Source: Sphingorhabdus sp. M41 (GTDB lineage Bacteria > Pseudomonadota > Alphaproteobacteria > Sphingomonadales > Sphingomonadaceae). Taken from it: a stretch of DNA of 64,000 nt. The translations under genes and the position numbers were made by a program. The notes under the pieces were generated by a model. The model searched no databases. It saw only the letters and a list, made by a program, of their open reading frames with translations, and had not been told where the DNA came from. The first letter of the stretch is position 1; each line of letters starts with the position of its first letter. Below, piece by piece: positions 40,815-53,186 of the stretch. The stretch spans positions 3,064,501-3,128,500 of the forward strand of contig NZ_CP014545.1 in the NCBI RefSeq assembly GCF_001586275.1. Direction: 5' to 3'.

Positions 40815-40831
40815 CCAGAAGAGGACTCGAA
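40815..40831. other. attL-like 17-bp direct repeat
   Basis: CCAGAAGAGGACTCGAA matches the tRNA-Leu 3'-end copy at 52848-52864 exactly. In the left copy one C is missing just upstream (TGGTGCC rather than TGGTGCCC). The repeat marks the left border of the island. Confidence 0.85.
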
Positions 40832-40969: not shown

Positions 40970-43900
40970 TTAAATCTGCCCACCGGCATTCTTAAATTTT
41001 GCAACAAATTCTGACACTCGTTGAAATACCACATCCTTCTTTGTCAAATACTCAGGATTCAGTGGGCTCATCTTAGGTAGAGTTTGGTTCAGGTCATTCC
41101 CATTGTCACTAGCGAATTCTCGTCTAATCGAATTGCTGACATAACGCCGGGTCGCTTCCCGATTAAGGCCCTCTGTTTCCACAAGCTCATCAAATTCCCG
41201 GCGCTGTTCCTCTCGTGCAAAGTTATAGAAGCTCTCGATTACTCCCTCTTTGCCATCAATCTCATCCAAGTTGGTTTGATTGATAAAATCGACGATTAAA
41301 TTTTCCTTTGCCCGATTGCCTAAACTCGCTCGAATGACACGACGTGCTTCGTCGATCAGATCGCTCTTGTCCTCGGTGCTACGATTCTTCTCGAAAATGA
41401 GCTCAAGAATATAGTCTAGATTGATCTCTTGAGATTTCAGGAGGTCGACCTCAAAAACTACATCATCCCAATCAAGCATGGATTCATCAGTTTCAGTCGC
41501 TGTCTTCTCTCGCCTTAACCAGTCACGAATGTCGTTGTAGGTAGATTTATAATCCTGTATCTTGCGTTCGGATGGTAGCTGTATGGCCGCCAGTTCTTCA
41601 ACTTCAGTGTCGCCTAGATGGTGAACATGCTTGAACGCTTCGACAGCCGCTTCATCAGTCTGGTCAATATCTTGGAAGGCCTTCAGGGCGACGAACTCGT
41701 CGAAGTTCTGCAGGATATTTTCAGCCCTTAGATACTCACCAAATAGCTTTGCAAATTCCTTCTTGTCCGCCTCCTTGACGATTTCGCCCGGATCAGGGAA
41801 ATTCTGCTCTAGCTCATCAAGGATGGTCACGAACCCTCGACGGGCTGAACCTGAGGCTATATCAGAGAAGCCTTCCATGTATTCCTGGTAGCTCTTCTCA
41901 ATCACGACGTTTTTCGTGTTGCTGTCACCGAACAACGTAATCGCATCGATGGTTGCTTGTTCTAGATCGCGAAAAGCAACGATGTTCCCAAAGGTCTTGG
42001 TCGCATCGAAAATTCGATTGGTGCGAGAATAAGCCTGTATGAGGCCGTGGAAGCGCAGGTTCTTATCGACGAAAAGCGTGTTAAGCGAAGGAGCATCAAA
42101 GCCGGTCAGGAACATCCCGACTACGATCAGGAGATCGACTTCCTTTGACTTCACCCGATTGGCGAGGTCGCGATAATAGTTCTGAAAACCGTTGCCGTCC
42201 GTGGTGAAGCTCGTGCCAAACATGGAATTATAGTCACGGATAGCCGCGTTCAGAAACTCTTTGCCGCTGCTTTCCAGCGCGGAAACATCAAAGGATTCGT
42301 CCCGGATTTCACCAATAGCATTCTGCTCTTCATTCGCGGCGAACGAAAAGATGGTAGCAATTTTGAGCGGCTTCACGCTGCCCCGCTGGAGCTCGTTCAA
42401 TGCCTCGTAGTAAAGCTTGGCAGCATCCACACTGCTTACTGCGAACATCCCATTAAAGCCACCGCCGCCCGGATTTGTGCGATGGGTCTTCTGGCGAAAG
42501 TTGCCCAGAATATACTGAGACACTTCACGTATCCGCTCGGGGTGAAGCAATGCCTTCTTGTTTTCGGCAGCACTGAGTTTCGCCTCATCCTGCTCGGTCT
42601 CAATGGCCCTGAACTTCGGTCGAACATCATTATAGTCAACTTTGAACTTGAGAACTTTCTCGTCGCGAATAGCGTCGGTAATCACGTATGAGTGTAATTC
42701 ACGGCCAAAGACGCTGGCGGTCGTCTCTGACCCAGAAGCGTTCTGCTGGAAGATGGGCGTGCCTGTGAATCCGAACTGATAGAAGCGCTTGAACTTCTTT
42801 TTCAGGTTCTTCTGCGCTTCACCAAACTGGCTGCGGTGGCACTCGTCGAAAATGAAAACCACCTGCTGACCATAAACTGAAAGGTCGCCTTCCCTCTTCA
42901 TTAAATTGTTCAGCTTCTGGATCGTGGTGACGACGATCTTGTTATCGTCTTTGGCCAGATTGCGTTTGAGAGCAGCCGTGTTTTCAGAGCCGTTCACGCT
43001 ATCTGGCGAGAACCGCTGGTATTCCTTCATCGTCTGGTAGTCGAGGTCTTTGCGGTCGACGACGAAAAACACCTTGTGGATGAAATCCAATTCAGTTGCC
43101 AGCCGCGCGGCCTTGAAGCTTGTCAGCGTCTTTCCTGATCCGGTGGTGTGCCAGATATAGCCGCCACTCTCTGGCTTGCTCCAGCTCTTCGTATTATAGG
43201 AGCTCTTGATTTTCCACATGATCCGCTCGGTCGCCGCAATCTGGTAGGGCCGCATGACCAGCAAGGTGTCGCTGACGTCGAAGACCGAATAGTGCAGCAA
43301 CACGTTCAGAAGCGTGCGCCTCTCCAAGAAGGTGGCGGTAAAGTCTTTCAGATCCTTGATCAGTCCGTTATCGGCCTTCGCCCAGTTCATGGTGAAATCG
43401 AAGCTGTTCTTGTCGCGCTTGGTTGTGTTGGCGAAATAGCGCGTGTCGGTGCCGTTTGAGATTACGAAGAGCTGAAGGAACTTGTAGAGCGAATTGTCGC
43501 TGTTGAAGCTCTCTTTGCTGTAGCGGTGGATTTGGTTGAACGCCTCGCGAATGGCCACACCGCGCTTCTTCAGCTCGATCTGCACCAATGGCAGGCCGTT
43601 GACGAGAATTGTCACGTCATAGCGATTAGCGTGCAGCCCAGCCTGCTCGAATTGCTTGATGACTTGCAGTTTGTTGCGCGCGATGTTTGCCTTGTCGAAG
43701 AGGTAGATGTTCTGAATGCGCCCGTCGTCGAACACAAAGTCGTTGATGTAGTCATCGTGGACCTTGCGGGTCTTGTCGATGATCCCGTCGCTAGGGCTGT
43801 CCAGATAGGTCATAACGAAGCGCTGCCACTCCTCATCGGAGAAGCGCACGCTGTTTAGGTCTTCCAGCCGCACACGAACATTGGCCAGCATGGCTTCGGG

Positions 43901-44071
43901 TGAGGTCAGGTCAGGCAGGAATTCATAGCCCTGATTACTCAGGTCCTTGATCAGCTCGCGCTCGAGTTCGGCCTCGCTCTGGTAGTGGTCCGCAGCGGTC
44001 CAGTCGCTGGTGTATTTGTCGAGAACGATGAAGTTCTTCGATTCCGCTATCGGCTTTGTCTGCTCAACCAT
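40970..44071 (-). CDS. hsdR: type I restriction enzyme, R subunit
   Basis: Motor and nuclease subunit of a type I restriction enzyme, 1033 residues. The N-terminal nuclease has the Asp in RYDVTILV and ELKKRG (residues 151-174, a D-x(n)-ExK site). The helicase motifs are [10 protein letters not shown] (Walker A, near 312), [15 protein letters not shown] and the C-terminal YSRTNRI. It would translocate DNA and cut it when the site is unmodified. The gene is last in hsdM-hsdS-prrC-hsdR and overlaps prrC by 8 bases. Codon use is less GC-rich than in the core genome. Confidence 0.95.
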
Positions 44072-45254
44072 CTTGCGCTTCCTGCTGCCAATAGCCGTAG
44101 TTGTTTATGAGGTTTTGCAGCAAAATCGCCACATCCTCCTTTTGTTGCTCCGTTGGTTCTGCAATTTCTTCTGCTGAAAGCTCTCGGTGACTGTAGTGAT
44201 TTATGACCTTTTTTAGATAATCGGTCCGCTCATCTGGCGCAGTTTTGAGCAAGTCGGTCCAATGTTTATAACCGAGGAAGTTTGCAGTCTTTTCATAGAG
44301 ATTGCGCAAAAGGCTGAAATGGAACTTCTCAACCGAGCCTTCTGCGATTGCGTTCTCCAATATGCCTTTGAGATGGTGGTGGTATGAAAAGCTCTTATTG
44401 GCCGCACCGTCCTTAGGAACCAGGTCCAGAAGCCCATCTTGATTGCGCTTCAATAAGTAACAGGCAGCACCGCTTAGCTCTTTACAAAGGACATTATAAA
44501 AAAGCGGGTTGTGGGTTGTGATGACAAACTTCACACCTTGGCCGTTTTGGAAGCGACTTCTGGCAATCAAGCCCGCCAAGTCGACGGCCAGCTCGATCAG
44601 ATGGTTCTCATCTAGCGAACTGACCGGATCGTCGATGAAAACATATGTGAGGTTGTCATACTCGTTGTCGTCGCGCTTAGTTGGGTCAGCTTCGCTCAAT
44701 AGGTCCACCACCTCCTGAAGCAAGGTGAAGAAAATGCTCCAGATCAGGTTGCTTTCTTCGCCCTTAGATATTTTAATCCCCTGACTGCTTTCTGTGCCTC
44801 GGTCATGGGAGAAAGTGATCGCAGGGTATTTGGTCTTGTTCTCCCTCTTACCGTCCCGGTTGGTGACCTGTTCGACCTCTGGAACAAAGGCCGGGGTCAG
44901 CTTGTCATCGGTGTAGCGCTGAAAATTGGCGATGATGTTTTGATCTTGGCCGCGCACACCCAATATCCAGTCGGTGAAGCTATTTGCCTTGATTTCTAGA
45001 CGGTATTCTTCATCATTCTCTAGGTCGTTATCCCAAGAAAACAGGTCTTCGGTGAAGGCGTTGTAGTAGAGAATTTTATTTCGCGATGGCTCCGCCGCTG
45101 CATGATCCTCAGGTTTCGGAGCAATCTCATTCTTCAATGCTCTGGAAAGTCGAGTCTTGCCTATGCCGTTGAAGGCGTAGATCAATTGGACTTTCTTATC
45201 CGCAGCGGTCAGCTCTTTGGCCTTAGCAGCGAGATTGTCATCTTGCTCGCTCAT
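44064..45254 (-). CDS. prrC: PrrC-like latent anticodon nuclease
   Basis: ATPase-tRNase of 396 residues, the same length as E. coli PrrC. The N-terminal ABC-type part has Walker [15 protein letters not shown] (26-39), a signature-like [13 protein letters not shown] (161-173), Walker B YVFIDDP, D-loop SSLDENH and switch His in VITTHNP. The C-terminal part has Arg317 and Glu321 in [14 protein letters not shown] and candidate His353 or His356, matching the Arg-Glu-His nuclease triad of Prr[11 protein letters not shown] (286-295) resembles the Lys-anticodon recognition peptide. In E. coli it is held inactive by the type I enzyme and cuts tRNA-Lys when phage Stp disables it. Overlaps hsdS by 4 bases. 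Confidence 0.9.
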
Positions 45255-46519
45255 GCCTCAACCGCCTGGGCAGCTTTGGGGAAACTCAGGAGTAGGTGAC
45301 GGTAATATTCATATTGCTGTTGCCGCAGCGCGATTTCGCGCGGCAGGCCTTCGCTGAGCGAGGTTGTGAGCGTGTCGAATTTGTCGAGTATTACTACGAT
45401 GCGTTCCTGCTCACCCTCCTTGTGTGGGACCGGGATTTCTATTTTCGCTAGGCTATCGGCATTGACTCGTCTTACCTTCGTGCCGGTGATGTATGCTCGC
45501 TTCTGCTTTTGGAATTGTTCGGTTTGAAAGAAATACGAAACGTATTTTGGGTTAAGATTGTGCGAGTAGAAACAGGCATCGCTACTTACGGCGATGTCCT
45601 CTTCGCCAAGCCAAGCGACGGCTTTGCAGACGTCATCATCGTTCTCGCTCGTTGTGGCGATAACCAAGTCCCCTTTTTTGGCTTTGCGCGCCTTTTTCGC
45701 AAAATCGTCCGAGACATAGCTTTTGGTTGAGCGCGCAAAAGTACCGTAATGGGTATAAATCTGGCCGTAGTGAATGCAACCAACGCCCTGCTCGACAAAG
45801 TCCTTCTTCTGCAACCCGCCACCTCGAGTGAATGAACCAATTCGCTCATCGCCAAGCGCCAAGAATTCGGCCTCACTATCATCAAAGCAAAAAAGCTCTT
45901 CGCGGTAGTGGTTGTATTGTTTCTTGCGCGCTGCCAGCTCAGCGGTCAGCTCAGCGGTCAGCTCAGTGAAGCTTTCCAGTATCCGAACAATCTCCGCCTG
46001 TATCGCCAGCGACTTCTCCGGCTCCTTCGGGCAGGGGATTGGGACTTCCAACGCTTGAATAAGCTGAGAATTGAGATTGCTAACGGAGCCGCTGTTGATC
46101 TTGGTTAACCAGTAACTCTGGACGGCGTGAGATGAGAGATAGTGATACAAAAAATCGGAATTGAGCGCATCCTGATAATCGCTTACCGATGCCCAGCCAT
46201 CGTGAATCGCGCCATCAAGAGCCAATATGTAAGGACGCCCAAAACTCATCGAGTTTGAGATGATAAAGTCGCCCTTACTCAGCCTGCGCGATTTTTCCGC
46301 ACCGCCGGCGGTAATCTTTTGAGCAGTTTTCGTAACATATTTTGAGCCGGGCTCGGTATCCCCAATCTTTATCCAAGGCACGCCATCTGGATCGTCAGTG
46401 ATAAACTTCGAAATTGGTCGAGGGGATGCGCCACGCTGCACTTTGGCTACATCGCCGAGCGGCTTCCACTCGACCTCCGCACCGTCCAGTAGATTATTAA
46501 GAAAGCTCAGATCGCTCAC
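45251..46519 (-). CDS. hsdS: type I restriction-modification specificity subunit, type IC-like
   Basis: Sequence-recognition subunit, 422 residues, with two target-recognition domains (about 16-165 and 215-380) separated by conserved regions. The central conserved region has two tandem TAEL units (residues 188-195), as in EcoR124I, where the unit count sets the spacing between the recognition half-sites. The C-terminal region ([20 protein letters not shown] and [16 protein letters not shown]) is of type IC. ATGA overlaps with hsdM and prrC show tight translational coupling. The recognition sequence cannot be predicted. Confidence 0.95.
45935..45970 (-). repeat. 12-bp tandem repeat encoding TAEL units in hsdS
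   Basis: CAGCTCAGCGGT occurs twice in tandem (45935-45946, 45947-45958), followed by a partial third copy CAGCTCAGTGAA. It encodes the TAEL units of the specificity subunit. Gain or loss by slippage keeps the frame and could change the recognised spacer by one base. Confidence 0.9.
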
Positions 46520-48060
46520 GCCTCGATCTCCGCGACAATCGCATCAATATCGCTGCGCAGCCGGTCAATCTTGGCGACAGTAGTTTTCAGTTCGGCGTTG
46601 AGTTCTACGATGTTGGTCTCAACCCGATTATCCTTCGGCTCAACGAAGGCGCTGACCGAAAGGTTATAGTCCGCATCGATCACTCGCTGCTGCTCCACCG
46701 TCTCAGACACGTTCTCGACATTCTCCTTGCTGGCGAACATCTCGATGATCCGGGCCACGTGATCGTCGCTCATCTCATTGGTGTTGGTCTTCTTGGCGAA
46801 GAACTCCTCTCCGCTCGCATCGATGAACTGAATCTTTGTGTCGGTCTTGTTCTTCGCGAGCACCAGAATGTGGACCGCAATCGTCGTGCCGAAAAACAGA
46901 TTGGGCGCGAGCGAAACCACCGTTTCCACGACATTGCTGTCGACCAGAAATTTGCGGATTTTCTGCTCTGCCCCGCCGCGATAGAAAATGCCCGGAAAGC
47001 ACACAATCGCCGCGCGTCCCTTGGCCGAAAGATAGTGCAGCGCGTGCAGCACAAAGGCGAAGTCTGCCTTTGATTTTGGGGCAAGCACGCCAGCGGGCGC
47101 AAACCGGTCATCATTGATCAGCGTCGGGTCTTCATCCCCCTTCCACCGGACCGAATAGGGTGGGTTGGAGACGATGGCATCGAAGGGCCTTTCATCAAGA
47201 AAATGCGGATTTTCGAGCGTGTTGCCGTTCTGGATGTTGAACTTGTCATAGTTCACATTGTGCAAGAACATATTCATGCGGGCGAGGTTGTAGGTGGTGT
47301 AGTTGATTTCCTGCCCGAAGAATCCCTCTTCGATGAAATGATCGCCGCAATGCTTCTTGGCCTGCAACAGCAAGGACCCAGACCCGGCGGCTGGATCGTA
47401 AATCTTGTTGATGCTGCTTCGCCCGTGAACAGCCAGTTGCGCGATCAGCTTTGATACGTGTTGCGGCGTGAAGAACTCGCCGCCCGATTTTCCTGCATTG
47501 GCCGCGTAGTTCGAGATCAGGAACTCATAGGCATCACCAAAGAGATCGTTTTCGTTCTCCTCGAACTTGAGCGGCAGGCTTTCGACACCCTTCAGCACCT
47601 TGGCCAGCCGGGCGTTCTTGTCCTTCACCATATTACCCAGCCGGTTGCTGGTAGTGTCAAAGTCTGAGAACAGGCCCTTGATGTCCTCTTCGGAAGGATA
47701 TCCGCTGGCAGAGCCTTCGATTTCCTTGAAGATTGTCGCCAAGTCGGTGTTCAGACTCTCATTGTTGTTGGCGCTGGCCGCGACATTGGCAAAGAGCTGG
47801 CTAGGGTAGATGAAGTAGCCCTTGGTCTTCACTGCATCGATTTTCGCCGCGTCTGGAATGGCGCTGTCATCCAAGCTGGCGTAGTTGATGCTATCATCAT
47901 CGGCTTCGATGTAGTTGGTGAAGTTTTCGCTGATAAATCGGTAAAACAACGCGCCCAGCACGAACTGCTTGAAATCCCAGCCATCAACCGCGCCTCTGAC
48001 ATCGTTAGCGATGGCCCAGATTTGGCGGCGCAATTCATCACGTTGTTGTTGGCCTGTCAT
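46516..48060 (-). CDS. hsdM: type I DNA methyltransferase, M subunit
   Basis: N6-adenine methyltransferase of 514 residues. The N-terminal domain starts EQQR-like with [12 protein letters not shown]. The SAM site is [14 protein letters not shown] (near 217-230) and the catalytic motif is SNPPY (near 300). It methylates the adenines of the type I site with HsdS. It is the first gene of the operon, with GAGG before the ATG. Length and order fit the type IC family. Confidence 0.95.
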
Positions 48061-48156
48061 TCTTGGTCCTCTTCACCCTGCATATTAGCGCATGATGTAT
48101 CCTTTATTCTGAATTGAGGTTCAATCAACCTTAGTCCATGATTTAATAGAACTATC

Positions 48157-48789
48157 TTACGAAGCTGTGTGTTGCTTTTTCTCGCGTTCTTTTTGTCCCT
48201 TTTTCACCAATTTGTCATCAATTTGACGGAGCGATTTATTTTCGAACTTTCCGCTGGATTGTAAGAGCAGGATCGCCAAGCAAAATCGTTCATAGCGCTC
48301 ACTCGGTGAGTTCCCCGGGTTAGTTACTTTGGGCAATCTCCCCTCAATTTTCGCCTTGACGCCCAATTCGGCCAGACTGTCCAATATCGGAAAGATATCC
48401 GGGCGATGGAAATGTAGGTATTTGGAAACAAATGATGCGCGTGAATGCACCTTCCTATGTCCTCCCGCTTCCGCGAGCTGCTTACAAAGATGCTGATCGA
48501 GCTTACCATGGACTTCGACAATCTGGGCAAGATTCGCTCTGGAAAATGACAGCCCGTCTAAGCCTGCAAGCAAGCGGTCCAACGCCAGTTTTTTGTTACA
48601 AAGCGCTTTTGCCACCAAATCCCAGTCCTTGCCCAGATTGCGGCTGACTTCGTAAACTTTTGCAATCATTCGCGCTTTGCTGTGCACTATATTTTTATCA
48701 GTATGCGATGGCTCTTGAGCGCACATGATATATAGAATTTTGTTTCCGTAACCGCCCGCCGCGTCATTACATTTTGTCTCATTCCCCAT
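48157..48789 (-). CDS. hypothetical protein upstream of the restriction operon
   Basis: Unrecognised protein of 210 residues. The visible parts are a helical N-terminal half with ARMIAKVYEVSRNLGKDWDLVAKAL, a conserved-looking SKYLHFHRPDIFPILDSLAE block (131-150) and a strongly basic tail ending KKGQKEREKKQHTA. The block recalls loosely related uncharacterised proteins found beside defence genes. No membrane segment or signal peptide. The start lacks a clear ribosome site. Same strand as hsdM, 96 bases upstream. Confidence 0.55.
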   Translation of the reverse strand: MGNETKCNDAAGGYGNKILYIMCAQEPSHTDKNIVHSKARMIAKVYEVSRNLGKDWDLVAKALCNKKLALDRLLAGLDGLSFSRANLAQIVEVHGKLDQHLCKQLAEAGGHRKVHSRASFVSKYLHFHRPDIFPILDSLAELGVKAKIEGRLPKVTNPGNSPSERYERFCLAILLLQSSGKFENKSLRQIDDKLVKKGQKEREKKQHTAS

Positions 48790-48827
48790 TGTTCTGACGT
48801 AGGCCCCACAGCCAGCGAGCGCAAAGA

Positions 48828-49922
48828 CTAATAGCGTCTCTGAAACTCTCGAACGGTTTTCGCCAAAATGGTGGCTAATTCCTGATCACCATCTGTTGCT
48901 TTCGATTGGCTAAGCCCCTTTATCAATTCCGCCTGCTCTTCGGGAGGAACATCACCGTAGCTCGAAAATGTCGTCATCATGTTGCTGTGACCCAGATTTT
49001 TTGACCAAGCCTTGTAAGCCCGGATAGACAGGCCAAGTTTCTGACCAAACCGTGCCAATGTTTTCCTCACCGAATGTGGGCTGTGATATTTTAAGCCAGC
49101 AGCTTCGAAAGCCTCTCTAAAAATCGTTCGGACCGGTCCGGCGTTGCTCCAACATTTTGGGTCTACCCCACTCGCTTCAAATCCATTGTTGCCGACCTTT
49201 ACCCTTGTCTGGGGAAATAGCGGATCATCGTCTCCAAAAAGCAGGTCTTCGCGCAAATGACGGACCCAATCTGCAATGATCTCGGCTGCGTCTCCGCCAA
49301 CCGGGAAAAACCATGTCTGGAAAGTCTTGGAAAATTTGGTTTGCACTTCACGGGCATCCTGATCCAGCCGCTGCTCGGCAACATCAATATGTTTCAGCTT
49401 TAGCGAAACAAGAGCGCCATCGCGCACACCGGTCAGAAAGATCAATGCAACAATTGCACGATTGCGTTGTTCTATGTCACTTGTGGCTGGCATCGATGAG
49501 ATCACATGATGCATTTGCTCCATTGACGGCACAGGCTGCTCGCGCGTGGCACGACTGATCCGCAAATCCTTTTCCGAGACGCTGAAATAGTGAGAATCTG
49601 AATAATTGAGCTTTGATTTGTAGTGCGGCTGGCCAGCAAGCCATTCAAAGAATTTCTGCAATGCCCGCATTGTGGAGGCAATCGTTGCCTTACTGAGCGG
49701 CTTGCCAGTTTGTTCGTTGATCTGTTCAACCAACCGACTTTTGAAAGCCATTGCCTGCGCCTTGTTAAACAGTTTAAAATCCCGGAACTTGGTCGAGACC
49801 TCAAAGCGGTTGATCGCCTTGGCTACGACATCTAGCGACTTTTCATCGCGGCCTTTTGCTTCCTTCAAATAAAGGAAATATTCGCGCTTGATCCGTTCGT
49901 TCGCTGCATTGTGTTTTGCCAT
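48828..49922 (-). CDS. tyrosine-type site-specific recombinase
   Basis: Phage-like integrase of 364 residues. The core-binding SAM-like domain covers about 1-125. The catalytic residues are Arg in LTGVRDGALVSL, His-x-x-Arg in HSPHSVRKTL, a second His in LGHSNMMTT and the nucleophilic Tyr probably in FSSYGDV. It differs from the P4-type enzyme at the right end of the island, so the island holds two recombinases. It is 7 bases downstream of an HTH/zinc-ribbon gene. Confidence 0.88.
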   Translation of the reverse strand: MAKHNAANERIKREYFLYLKEAKGRDEKSLDVVAKAINRFEVSTKFRDFKLFNKAQAMAFKSRLVEQINEQTGKPLSKATIASTMRALQKFFEWLAGQPHYKSKLNYSDSHYFSVSEKDLRISRATREQPVPSMEQMHHVISSMPATSDIEQRNRAIVALIFLTGVRDGALVSLKLKHIDVAEQRLDQDAREVQTKFSKTFQTWFFPVGGDAAEIIADWVRHLREDLLFGDDDPLFPQTRVKVGNNGFEASGVDPKCWSNAGPVRTIFREAFEAAGLKYHSPHSVRKTLARFGQKLGLSIRAYKAWSKNLGHSNMMTTFSSYGDVPPEEQAELIKGLSQSKATDGDQELATILAKTVREFQRRY

Positions 49923-49928
49923 TGTTTC

Positions 49929-50405
49929 TTATCCCTGCTTCAAGTCACAGTTTGAGGGGAGTTCGGCCCGCCCACTTATGCTTGATTGACACTCCACAAA
50001 CTGGATAGCGATTCCTGGCATAGTGGCAGACAGATGTGCGACGGTGGCATTGCGGTTGATTGGCCGTTCGCACGTCTCACATAATGCTTTTAGGCATCCG
50101 CTGCGGTCAGTTTTAGGGACATAATCCACCATGCCCATGGCAGGACGCCTCGGCTCTCTGCATTTGAGGCAGTAAAACTCACCGGGGCCGCATGGACGTT
50201 TTGCCGATTTGCGCTTTTCGGCGAGCCAGCTTTTCAAATCACTGCCCAAAACCAACATTGGTTTGCAGTCATCGATCACAGGAAGGCCTTTTGCAATCCA
50301 GTCGCGAACGGTGTTTTTGTGAACGCCAAGGAGGCGAGCGATTTCATCCACCGTATAGTTGCGATACTGCTTTACCAGCCGATAATTGATCCGTTTTCCG
50401 GACAT
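49929..50405 (-). CDS. HTH protein with a C4 zinc-ribbon-like segment
   Basis: Protein of 158 residues. The N-terminal helix-turn-helix is YTVDEIARLLGVHKNTVRDW (17-36). After a linker, Cys-x2-Cys pairs at about 79-82 (CLKC) and 111-114 (CETC) suggest a zinc ribbon. It sits directly upstream of the second integrase, 7 bases away; HTH protein plus integrase is a recurring module in proteobacterial elements, probably controlling or assisting recombination. Confidence 0.7.
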   Translation of the reverse strand: MSGKRINYRLVKQYRNYTVDEIARLLGVHKNTVRDWIAKGLPVIDDCKPMLVLGSDLKSWLAEKRKSAKRPCGPGEFYCLKCREPRRPAMGMVDYVPKTDRSGCLKALCETCERPINRNATVAHLSATMPGIAIQFVECQSSISGRAELPSNCDLKQG

Positions 50406-50416
50406 CGTTGGTCGAG

Positions 50417-50581
50417 TTACGCCCCGTCAATCAAGCGGCGGATAGATTCGGTTTTGATCAAATGCCGCCGCCCGAACTTGACCGTTTCCAGCCGACCTTC
50501 CTTGATAAGCACATAAATTGAAGTACGGCCTAAGCCCAAAGCTTTCGCCGCGCCGGTAATTGAGATTGTAACCGGTTCCAT
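50417..50581 (-). CDS. AlpA-like excisionase/HTH regulator
   Basis: Small HTH protein of 54 residues: ITGAAKALGLGRTSIYVLIK followed by GRLETVKFGRRHLIK, the winged-helix pattern of AlpA and excisionase proteins. The ATG is preceded by GGAG at a proper distance. It may steer excision by one of the two integrases. The HTH/zinc-ribbon gene begins 12 bases downstream. Confidence 0.8.
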   Translation of the reverse strand: MEPVTISITGAAKALGLGRTSIYVLIKEGRLETVKFGRRHLIKTESIRRLIDGA

Positions 50582-50687
50582 AACCTTTTCTCCAGTTTGA
50601 CCGCTCACGTTCAAGCGGGTTCTGGAGTCAGTTTCTACGGACGGCGCGAATAGTTTTCCGCCGATAAGAGGCGATAAGGGGCGGAAA

Positions 50688-51410
50688 CTAGTTTTCAGCC
50701 ACTTCCAGCCGTTGCCAAAGCAATCTAGCGCGTTTTCGAACAGTACTATCTGCCGCTGAATGTCCGTTACTTTCCAACCAATCCATCATGGCCTTTTCGA
50801 TATCGGCCTGTCGTTTTGGATTAAGATCGCCTTCGTAAAGCAACGTGGCAATCGTAGCCCACATTTCATCCCAGTGCTCGGCGGCTGGCCTGCCACCCTT
50901 GTTTTTTGTCACTTCGTTTTTCGGCATCAAAGCCGACCGTTTTTCAGATAGGCCAAAGCTAGCCATGTCAATTGGTTCGGGCCTAGTGAAACTATATCGC
51001 CGCAAATCTTTAAGGCGCTTTAGTTGGCCCTCAACTGATAAGAATTGGAGATTGATGGCGTTAGCAACGGCGGAATTGGGATTACCCGTAGTACAAACCC
51101 CGTAAATATTGTCGTCTTTCAAGTTTCGCCTCATCATTGTCGAAAGCTGCATATGGCCTTCTTCGTATATAGCAAAAGCTTCCATTTCCATCGATACGTC
51201 AGCAATTGCATCCAGCGTGCTAGACACATAACTTTGGCCGACTGTATCAAAAATCTCGACGTGTCGCTTTAGGGTAGCGCCGCTATTCAAACAGCCTTTC
51301 GCCGCATGATCAGTGTGAAGATGGCGGACTTTTTCCCGGATATCCTTTTCCGCACGCAACAAAGCATCGGCAAGAATTAATCGTATCTGTTGGCGTTGTT
51401 CAGAGTTCAC
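50688..51410 (-). CDS. hypothetical island protein
   Basis: Unrecognised protein of 240 residues with a GTG start. The N-terminal two thirds are largely helical. The C-terminal third starts KNKGGRPAAEHWDEMWATI and continues with a segment ending VRKRARLLWQRLE, which looks like a small DNA-binding domain seen in other phage and island proteins. No signal or membrane segment. It lies between the P4-type integrase and AlpA genes. Confidence 0.55.
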   Translation of the reverse strand: MNSEQRQQIRLILADALLRAEKDIREKVRHLHTDHAAKGCLNSGATLKRHVEIFDTVGQSYVSSTLDAIADVSMEMEAFAIYEEGHMQLSTMMRRNLKDDNIYGVCTTGNPNSAVANAINLQFLSVEGQLKRLKDLRRYSFTRPEPIDMASFGLSEKRSALMPKNEVTKNKGGRPAAEHWDEMWATIATLLYEGDLNPKRQADIEKAMMDWLESNGHSAADSTVRKRARLLWQRLEVAEN

Positions 51411-51451
51411 CAGATATTGATATTAAATTGTCGACTAGAAAGCCAGTCGTT

Positions 51452-52675
51452 TCAATTGTGATTTACACTCGGAAATTGAACAACCTCCCCGCCGTCCCGC
51501 AGAGTTTCTAGATAGTCACTCCACCATTGCGCCATTTGCACTCGCTCATCCCAATGCTGGCCGCGATGGTATGCGCCGCGCGTTGCATTCCCATCCTTAT
51601 GGGCCAAAGCACGCTCGATAGCATCGGCACTCCATTTCCCACTTTCGTTTAACAGTGTGCTGGCCATGGAGCGAAAGCCATGCGCCGTCATTTCTTTGCC
51701 TGAATATCCCAGCCGCCGGAGCGAAGCATTGATTGTATTTTCGGACATCGGACGATTGCCCGGATAGAGCGACGAGAACACATATTGTTGCCCTTCGCTG
51801 ATGACTTTTGCTGATTCCAGCAATTCCAATGCCTGCAATGAAAGCGGAACAACGTGCGGGTCACGCATTTTCATTTTTTCGGCTGGTATCGTCCAGATTG
51901 CCTTTTCCAAATCAAACTCTTGCCATTCGGCGCGTCGCAATTCACCCGGACGCACGAACACATGGGGGGTCAGCTTTAGGGCAATGCATGTGAGCGGTTG
52001 GCCTTGATAGCCGTCGATGGCGCGCAACAATTCGCCAACCGCCTTCGGTTCCAATATTGCGCTATGATGCGTCACTTTGGGGGCCACCAATGCGCCTCTC
52101 AGCAAATTGGAAGGATCGGCGGTCGCGCGTGATGTTGCCACCGCATATCGAAATACTCTGCCCGCAAATGATCTCATCCGGCGGGCTGTTTCCAAATGTC
52201 CTTTGGCTTCAACCTTTTGCAGAGCTTCGAGCAAGTCGGCTGGTGTGATATCGGTTATCGGTCGATTTCCAATAGCGTTTTCAAGCAGCGACAACAGCCA
52301 GCGCGTTTTCTTGATGGTAACAGCCGCACGGCCTTCCTTTGCCGATTTGTCGATATATTCGTCGGCGATTGCCTTGAACGTGTTCGCTGCATTTCGTTTG
52401 GCTGACTTTGCCTGTTCAAGTTTGACGCTTGCAGGGTCCGCTCCGTTTGCCAGCAACGTCCTTGCTTCGTCGCGCCTTTTCCGGGCCTCTTTCAATGTAA
52501 CATCTGGATAGACGCCCAACGAAAGCTTCTTTTCCTTACCCAATATCCGGTATTTCAGCCGCCAAAGCTTTCCGCCACTAGGCTGAAGCAACAGGAACAA
52601 CCCTCTTTCATCAAAAAGCTTGATCGGTTTCGGGCCATGTTTAGCTCCTTTAATTGCTGTATCAGTCAATGCCAT
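51452..52675 (-). CDS. int: P4-type tyrosine integrase
   Basis: Integrase of 407 residues that inserts islands into tRNA genes. The N-terminal arm-binding domain (LTDTAIKGAKHGPKPIKLFD, then GLFLLLQPSGGKLWRLKYR) is the DUF4102 type of P4 integrase. The catalytic residues are Arg in FVRPGELRRAEW, His-x-x-Arg in TAHGFRSMA, a His in ALAHKDGNATRGAYHRG and a Tyr in the same stretch. The start is 167 bases from the tRNA-Leu 3' end and points away from it, which is the standard arrangement. Confidence 0.93.
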   Translation of the reverse strand: MALTDTAIKGAKHGPKPIKLFDERGLFLLLQPSGGKLWRLKYRILGKEKKLSLGVYPDVTLKEARKRRDEARTLLANGADPASVKLEQAKSAKRNAANTFKAIADEYIDKSAKEGRAAVTIKKTRWLLSLLENAIGNRPITDITPADLLEALQKVEAKGHLETARRMRSFAGRVFRYAVATSRATADPSNLLRGALVAPKVTHHSAILEPKAVGELLRAIDGYQGQPLTCIALKLTPHVFVRPGELRRAEWQEFDLEKAIWTIPAEKMKMRDPHVVPLSLQALELLESAKVISEGQQYVFSSLYPGNRPMSENTINASLRRLGYSGKEMTAHGFRSMASTLLNESGKWSADAIERALAHKDGNATRGAYHRGQHWDERVQMAQWWSDYLETLRDGGEVVQFPSVNHN

Positions 52676-52676
52676 C

Positions 52677-52731
52677 TGGGGGCCACTCCTATTGGTTCAA
52701 ATACCAATGGCCCCCAACGTGGCCCCCAAAA
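52677..52731. repeat. TGGCCCCCAA repeats (possible integrase arm sites), right end
   Basis: TGGGGGCCA at 52677-52685 (inverted), and TGGCCCCCAA at 52710-52719 and 52722-52731. The last two share the 12-base period of the pair at the left end. They lie just upstream of the integrase start. Confidence 0.6.
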
Positions 52732-52841
52732 GATCGTGATTGCTCACGAACACGGGCGGACGCCAACGGTCATTTAGGAAGAGTTTTTAGCAGTTTTACG
52801 GGAGTTTAGCAAGCTTTGACGAACACTTGCGAACGTATATC

Positions 52842-52928
52842 TGGTGCCCAGAAGAGGACTCGAACCTCCACATCCTTGCGAATACATGCACCTGAAGCAT
52901 GCGCGTCTACCAATTCCGCCATCTGGGC
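52842..52928 (-). tRNA. tRNA-Leu(CAG), island attachment gene
   Basis: 87-nt tRNA including an encoded CCA. The acceptor stem GCCCAGA/TCTGGGC, the D arm with GAATTGGTAGA, the anticodon stem CATGC/GCATG with loop TTCAGGT (anticodon CAG), a long variable arm and a TTCGAGT T-loop are all present. Its 3' end faces the island and contributes the right-hand border repeat. Confidence 0.96.
52848..52864. other. attR-like 17-bp direct repeat in tRNA-Leu
   Basis: CCAGAAGAGGACTCGAA, within the T-arm and acceptor stem of tRNA-Leu(CAG), identical to 40815-40831. The two copies are 12,033 bases apart and enclose the island. Confidence 0.88.
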
Positions 52929-53186
52929 CCATGCAGGCGGTGATCATGTCGATACCACCTGATAGAGGCGGGCGATTAGCCGCTTGGTGGTTCTGCTGTC
53001 AATGATTCATATGGGGTTTCATATCCATAAAAGCAGATCGTCCCGGCTCGCTGTGGCTCGGCGAAGTCGAAACCGCGGGGACACGGCATAAATTATGCTA
53101 TGCCAAGCAGGGAATCGGCTGTTGCTTCACCCGCCCGCCTGAGGCAGAGGCAAAAAGATCAACCTAGGCACGAGTGGAAGATGGAC

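Follow-up and report, generated by a model that had tools for sequence, protein, structure and literature searches.

Introduction

In Escherichia coli, the anticodon nuclease PrrC is held latent within EcoprrI, is activated by Stp together with GTP and unmodified DNA, is stabilised by dTTP, and cuts tRNA-Lys 5' of the wobble base by means of a C-terminal HEPN nuclease (PMC3014915, PMC2610378, PMC12707154, PMC3710099; extracts of these and of the other cited papers underlie what we say of them here and below). Its catalytic triad is Arg320-Glu324-His356 (PMC2610378). PrrC orthologues linked to type Ic restriction-modification (R-M) systems have long been known in distantly related bacteria (PMC2610378, PMC3014915). 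In this study, we analyzed a stretch of 64,000 nucleotides from Sphingorhabdus sp. M41 (contig NZ_CP014545.1, positions 3,064,501 to 3,128,500 of the forward strand), called the window below, in which an earlier note had read a complete prr-type locus, a type IC restriction operon with an embedded prrC gene. The locus is complete and intact and comes from the known prr family; the type of system is not new. With a probability of roughly 0.87, it would be a complete defence locus of the prr type, with type IC R-M and PrrC in one operon and a mechanism as in E. coli.

PrrC170 of Klebsiella quasipneumoniae is likewise a nuclease of the PrrC family encoded inside a type I R-M operon; activity against T1 and T7 and action on tRNA-Lys have been published for it. 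It differs in the order HsdR-HsdS-PrrC-HsdM and is 35% identical to EcoPrrC by that paper's own figure, its sequence not being part of our comparison (PMC11555353). RloC also has an ABC ATPase and the Arg-x3-Glu...His triad, but it is larger, has a coiled coil with a zinc hook and is seldom found in linkage with R-M (PMC2610378). The extracts of two further papers, one on Campylobacter hsd loci (PMC5183652) and one on other R-M-linked toxins (PMC9296519), contain nothing on the window locus.

The operon joins type IC R-M genes with prrC

The locus consists of four open reading frames (ORFs), with product lengths in amino acids (aa):

46516-48060, minus strand: hsdM (prrA-like), 514 aa, type IC methyltransferase subunit
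45251-46519, minus strand: hsdS (prrB-like), 422 aa, GTG start, specificity subunit
44064-45254, minus strand: prrC, 396 aa, ABC-ATPase with a C-terminal anticodon-nuclease region
40970-44071, minus strand: hsdR (prrD-like), 1033 aa, type IC restriction/translocase subunit

Consecutive genes overlap by 4 bases (hsdM/hsdS, 46516-46519), 4 bases (hsdS/prrC, 45251-45254) and 8 bases (prrC/hsdR, 44064-44071). All four ORFs are uninterrupted, and the gene order and overlaps given in the earlier note were found as described. HsdM matched the NCBIfam model hsdM with 614 bits and, among solved structures, was closest to the M protein of EcoR124II (870 bits). HsdS contains two specificity-domain stretches (Pfam Methylase_S) and had the EcoR124II S protein as its top structural match (197 bits), while HsdR matched EcoR124 HsdR over its full length (1735 bits) and carries the Pfam domains EcoR124_C and HSDR_N. 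The motifs DPAAGSG and NPPY of HsdM and ELKK, GSGKT and DECH of HsdR are intact. Because the subunits of EcoR124 are the best matches of all three Hsd proteins, the EcoR124_C domain is present and the HsdR and HsdM motifs are intact, the R-M part is by sequence type IC, as the earlier note had named it, and looks functional.

The operon might nevertheless be decayed or non-expressed cargo of the integrative element that carries it (see below). Promoter-like sites in the region are at chance level (10 found, 9.9 expected from shuffles), which would fit this explanation, as would the presence of relatives on plasmids (116 of 72,556 plasmid records match PrrC, Zymomonas plasmids among them). Against this stand four intact ORFs with coupled starts, intact catalytic motifs and a prrC gene without internal stop, and we consider decay or silence very unlikely. 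Terminator-like sites in the region are also at chance level (17 versus 14.1 expected, standard deviation 3.8, from shuffles).

The third product matches PrrC

The PrrC model of PADLOC matched residues 6-394 of the third product with 432.9 bits (E=2.3e-130); the E. coli-type PrrC of strain B1 (locus L096) scored 490 bits with this model. Together with 88 homologues in the alignment panel, at 29-68% identity, this E-value places the sequence match beyond chance. The Pfam match was AAA_13, and in PHROGs the protein fell into a family of unknown function (464 bits). Walker A (YAFNGIGKT), the sequence SKGEE, Walker B with the D-loop and His248 are present and conserved in the alignment; we read SKGEE as the ABC signature and His248 as the linchpin. 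Residues 63-77 form a block rich in invariant residues, the sequence of the N-terminal 15-residue 'PrrC box' lying outside this comparison. R317-x3-E321 and H356 align with R320, E324 and H356 of L096, in agreement with the ATPase motifs and nuclease triad that had been read from the translation. The assignment of the third product as a PrrC anticodon nuclease, and with it the prr-type name of the locus, is supported by these matches. The genome holds one prrC copy.

An RloC-like nuclease or another AAA_13 ATPase could in principle merely sit in the R-M operon, and weaker matches to AAA_13 (Pfam) and to PDC-S06 (PADLOC) were indeed obtained. However, the next PADLOC model reached 50.5 bits and thus trailed the PrrC model by 382 bits, and the best matches were not AAA proteins without the triad, the outcome on which the note would have given up its assignment. 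Moreover, RloC has been described with a coiled-coil/zinc-hook insert (PMC2610378), whereas the window protein has 396 aa and two cysteines (257 and 265) without a CxxC motif, and its gene is located within the type IC operon. We rejected an RloC identity on the missing zinc hook and the lead of the PrrC model, and the chance that the protein is RloC-like or another such ATPase is close to negligible.

We compared the locus with that of E. coli B1 (L096, NZ_CP157955.1), which stands here for E. coli prr in place of the originally described EcoprrI locus. Its genes are ordered hsdM-hsdS-'anticodon nuclease'-hsdR, reproducing the prrA-B-C-D order to which the window locus had been likened. Common to both loci are this order, a nuclease of 396 aa, an 8-base overlap of its gene with hsdR, the triad and the ABC motifs. 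In contrast, the window PrrC is 54% identical to the L096 nuclease (best segment), has a shorter N-terminus and has alanine in the Asp287 column, and its locus sits in a different host, as part of a tRNA-Leu element. The length of 396 residues, which the earlier note took as a likeness, is indeed equal, but the equality is coincidental, because the P-loop motif begins at residue 26 of the window protein but at residue 39 of L096, the window protein having additional length beyond this point. A DNA search in E. coli (distant mode, E up to 10) gave matches in 51 of 5,426 genomes, that of strain B1 among them, and in no genome did they cover more than 80% of the query.

PrrC relatives occur in two gene orders

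From a scan of genome contigs, we examined the best 80 of 115 relatives, with the Hsd proteins of the window as queries to determine the layout. The order was hsdM-hsdS-prrC-hsdR (M-S-C-R) in 34 loci, of which five are only partly contained in the stretch examined, and hsdR-hsdS-prrC-hsdM (R-S-C-M) in 46. In the 30 M-S-C-R loci that have hsdM, its product was 55-88% identical to HsdM of the window; in the 46 R-S-C-M loci the value was 30-40%. The triad is present in 33 of the 34 M-S-C-R proteins, the exception (L045) being truncated at 265 aa. Among the 46 R-S-C-M proteins, all have the arginine, 45 the glutamate (one has aspartate) and 45 the histidine (one is truncated), and the PADLOC PrrC model covered the four that were scanned. 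An 8-base overlap of prrC and hsdR was found in 9 of 12 loci with gene coordinates (window, L016-L018, L020, L021, L096-L101); in L017 and in L097 a short gap separates the two genes, and for L021 the exact start of hsdR is uncertain.

In a tree of 87 proteins, built without L001 and L002 (copies of the window) and without the truncated L045 and L061, a branch of 100/100 set the R-S-C-M proteins apart. The window protein grouped with those of Primorskyibacter (L016, 68% identity) and Hyphobacterium (L017, 65%), again with 100/100. As the program warned, long branches come together near the root (that of L048 and the R-S-C-M side), which leaves this region unsure.

The 46 R-S-C-M loci are L047, L049, L051-L056 and L058-L095; L131:5173-12440, from the same genus as the window, has this order as well. 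The PrrC-like nucleases of this layout span many phyla, including two archaeal contigs (L074, L084). Translated searches (tblastn) detected hsdS in 12 of the 46 loci; an hsdS-sized ORF was correctly placed in all six loci whose ORFs were listed (five of the 46, namely L059, L062, L064, L074 and L083, and L131 from genome G016), and a Pfam S domain was confirmed in L131, the one locus tested. This lineage first looked new to us, because PrrC orthologues have been called invariably type Ic-linked (PMC2610378). We rejected its novelty, as an active HsdR-HsdS-PrrC-HsdM system is in print (PMC11555353). In the R-S-C-M locus of Neisseria weixii (L062:2290-5249), hsdR appears as two overlapping ORFs, and this copy may therefore be broken.

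Of 98 genomes, comprising that of the window and those of relatives, 12 had PADLOC PrrC matches at E<=0.001 and three exceeded 400 bits, namely the window's own genome, G065 with an M-S-C-R locus, and the congeneric G016 with its R-S-C-M locus. Among 386 genomes of the class, eight matched at 1e-20 and five had at least 50% identity, the window's own included. Hence, the locus adds a complete and intact prr member to a thinly sampled branch.

Proposed mechanism

A two-layer defence with a latent nuclease, carried over by homology from the work on E. coli, is the likely function of the locus. PrrC would stay latent, held by the R-M complex, until T4 Stp or a comparable phage factor puts the restriction enzyme out of action on unmodified DNA. 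The ABC domain would then hydrolyse NTP and thereby activate PrrC, which would cut a host tRNA, most likely tRNA-Lys, 5' of the wobble base, so that translation stops and the infection is aborted.

Several points weigh against a mechanism as in E. coli. Our literature search found no published test of the window locus for expression, latency, tRNA cleavage or phage defence; for PrrC in Sphingomonas, it yielded a single full-text hit, which concerns bacterioplankton. The best PDB sequence match of PrrC is weak (residues 286-362, E=0.0039) and was not recovered with a profile, and the HEPN fold of the C-terminal nuclease region is inferred from the literature. Finally, the column of Asp287, the residue through which E. 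coli PrrC is reported to contact the modified wobble base (PMC3014915, PMC13191261), holds Ala284 in the window protein; because of this replacement, the tRNA target or the required modification may differ from those of E. coli PrrC.

Residue 287 and the choice of substrate

Substitutions of D287 alter the wobble-modification preference of E. coli PrrC, and PrrC substrates may vary since the recognition sequence varies (PMC3014915). It is conceivable that the window protein is the same latent nuclease with altered recognition: lacking the Asp287 contact, it would cut tRNA-Lys in a hypomodified or otherwise modified state, or a different tRNA. Consistent with this, the column holds alanine in the window protein and L016 and aspartate in 28 of the 34 M-S-C-R relatives. 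On the other side, this is a single residue, and the alignment of its loop is uncertain, as L017 from this clade shows a gap there in one alignment and glutamate in another. Also, there was no match to the MnmC pattern of the hosts. We hold altered recognition to be possible at rather long odds, and still favor a PrrC that works as in E. coli. The column does not define the family, given the counts above; L029 also has alanine, and four further relatives of the same lineage found among the 386 class genomes have aspartate.

The host pattern was examined in 35 genomes with PF05430, which we take to mark MnmC, at a cut-off of 22 bits; some of these genomes may be incomplete. The hosts of L016 and L017 scored 122 bits each, the genome of the window 20.6 bits (below the cut-off), and in the host of L029 the domain was absent. 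Among hosts whose PrrC keeps Asp287, that of L018 gave no match and that of L020 a marginal one (22.6 bits). The idea that Asp287 was lost as an adaptation to hosts without MnmC was not supported by this distribution.

His353, three residues before the catalytic histidine, occurs within the compared set only in the window protein, L016 and L017, which are of one clade. The window and L016, possibly with L017, might thus represent an alphaproteobacterial subclade of PrrC that has lost the wobble contact, has gained a histidine and may have as its target tRNA-Lys with a different modification, or some other tRNA; on these residues, we think this fairly unlikely. If it were true, the prr device would be retargetable. 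The window locus offers a test case both for the dependence of PrrC substrate choice on residue 287 and for latency in distant type IC complexes.

The prr operon lies on a tRNA-Leu element

Next to the operon, the window contains these features:

52842-52928, minus strand: tRNA-Leu(CAG), integration site, the sole tRNA in the window (ARAGORN)
51452-52675, minus strand: integrase of the tRNA-Leu element, adjoining the tRNA (Pfam Arm-DNA-bind_3, Phage_int_M, Phage_integrase)
49929-50405, minus strand: helix-turn-helix (HTH), excisionase-like protein (Pfam HTH_17; weak PHROG excisionase/regulator match)
48828-49922, minus strand: second tyrosine recombinase (Pfam Phage_integrase)
48157-48789, minus strand: 210-aa protein of unknown family, island cargo just upstream of hsdM
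52848-52864: attachment-site repeat inside the tRNA gene, 17-base exact direct repeat
40815-40831: far copy of the repeat, 17 bases, exact, about 140 bases beyond the end of hsdR

The repeat corresponds to the 3' part of tRNA-Leu and delimits an element of about 12 kb; by eye, the far copy can be followed to the left as far as about 40810 if an indel of one base is allowed. Of 200 random controls with the first-order composition of the region, none contained a 15-base word that also occurs in the tRNA gene, and one had 14 bases in common with it. The GC content per 1-kb step is 46-55% inside (41000-52999) and 54.5-61% outside. By these sequence marks, the prr operon is carried on a tRNA-Leu integrative element, and the locus shows prr as cargo of a small element of this kind. 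The tRNA, the adjacent integrase and the direct repeat bear out the tRNA-Leu island of the earlier note. That note had singled out the presence of prr on such an island in a sphingomonad-like genome as its notable point, which is weaker than claimed because PrrC with type Ic systems is known from distant bacteria (PMC2610378, PMC3014915) and other Alphaproteobacteria also carry prr-type loci.

At a threshold of 0.001, neither Pfam nor PADLOC nor PHROG gave a match to the 210-aa protein, and it had no homologue at 1e-5 in 288 other genomes of the class; its sole NCBIfam match reached 14.9 bits, below the cut-off of 80. We count it as cargo of the island rather than as a prr gene.

Five island proteins were searched for at the loci of the nearest relatives. 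L017 has the integrase only (48% identical to that of the window) and also lies near a tRNA-Leu(CAG), its operon running opposite to the integrase; L016 has none of the five. We found no tRNA in the fetched stretches of L016, L020 and L130, and no attachment repeats of at least 13 bases in those of L017, L018 and L021.

We also compared eight congeneric loci at the same tRNA, drawn from 30 other matching genomes. All eight contain tRNA-Leu(CAG), beside which the window's integrase had a long match in five (53-93%), a fragment in two (90 or 159 bases) and none in one. In the last of these, congener G005 (L122:1013-14935), about 13.8 kb separate the tRNA from the same left-flank gene. A tRNA repeat of 16 bases bounds this DNA, which lacks any relative of the integrase found in the window, so this stretch is apparently a different element at the same tRNA-Leu site. 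An empty integration site was not found; in other congeners, such as G015 and G024, the two flanks lie far apart.

At the Erythrobacter prr locus L018, homologues of the second recombinase (58%) and the HTH protein (61%) lie directly upstream of the operon. This recurrence suggests that the two genes may travel with prr, possibly as a mobility module. The shared pair occupies 48828-50405 in the window and L018:3347-4977, and L018 lies next to a tRNA-Gly. The hsdR genes of L018 and L021 end about 100 bases from this tRNA-Gly and from a tRNA-Ser, respectively.

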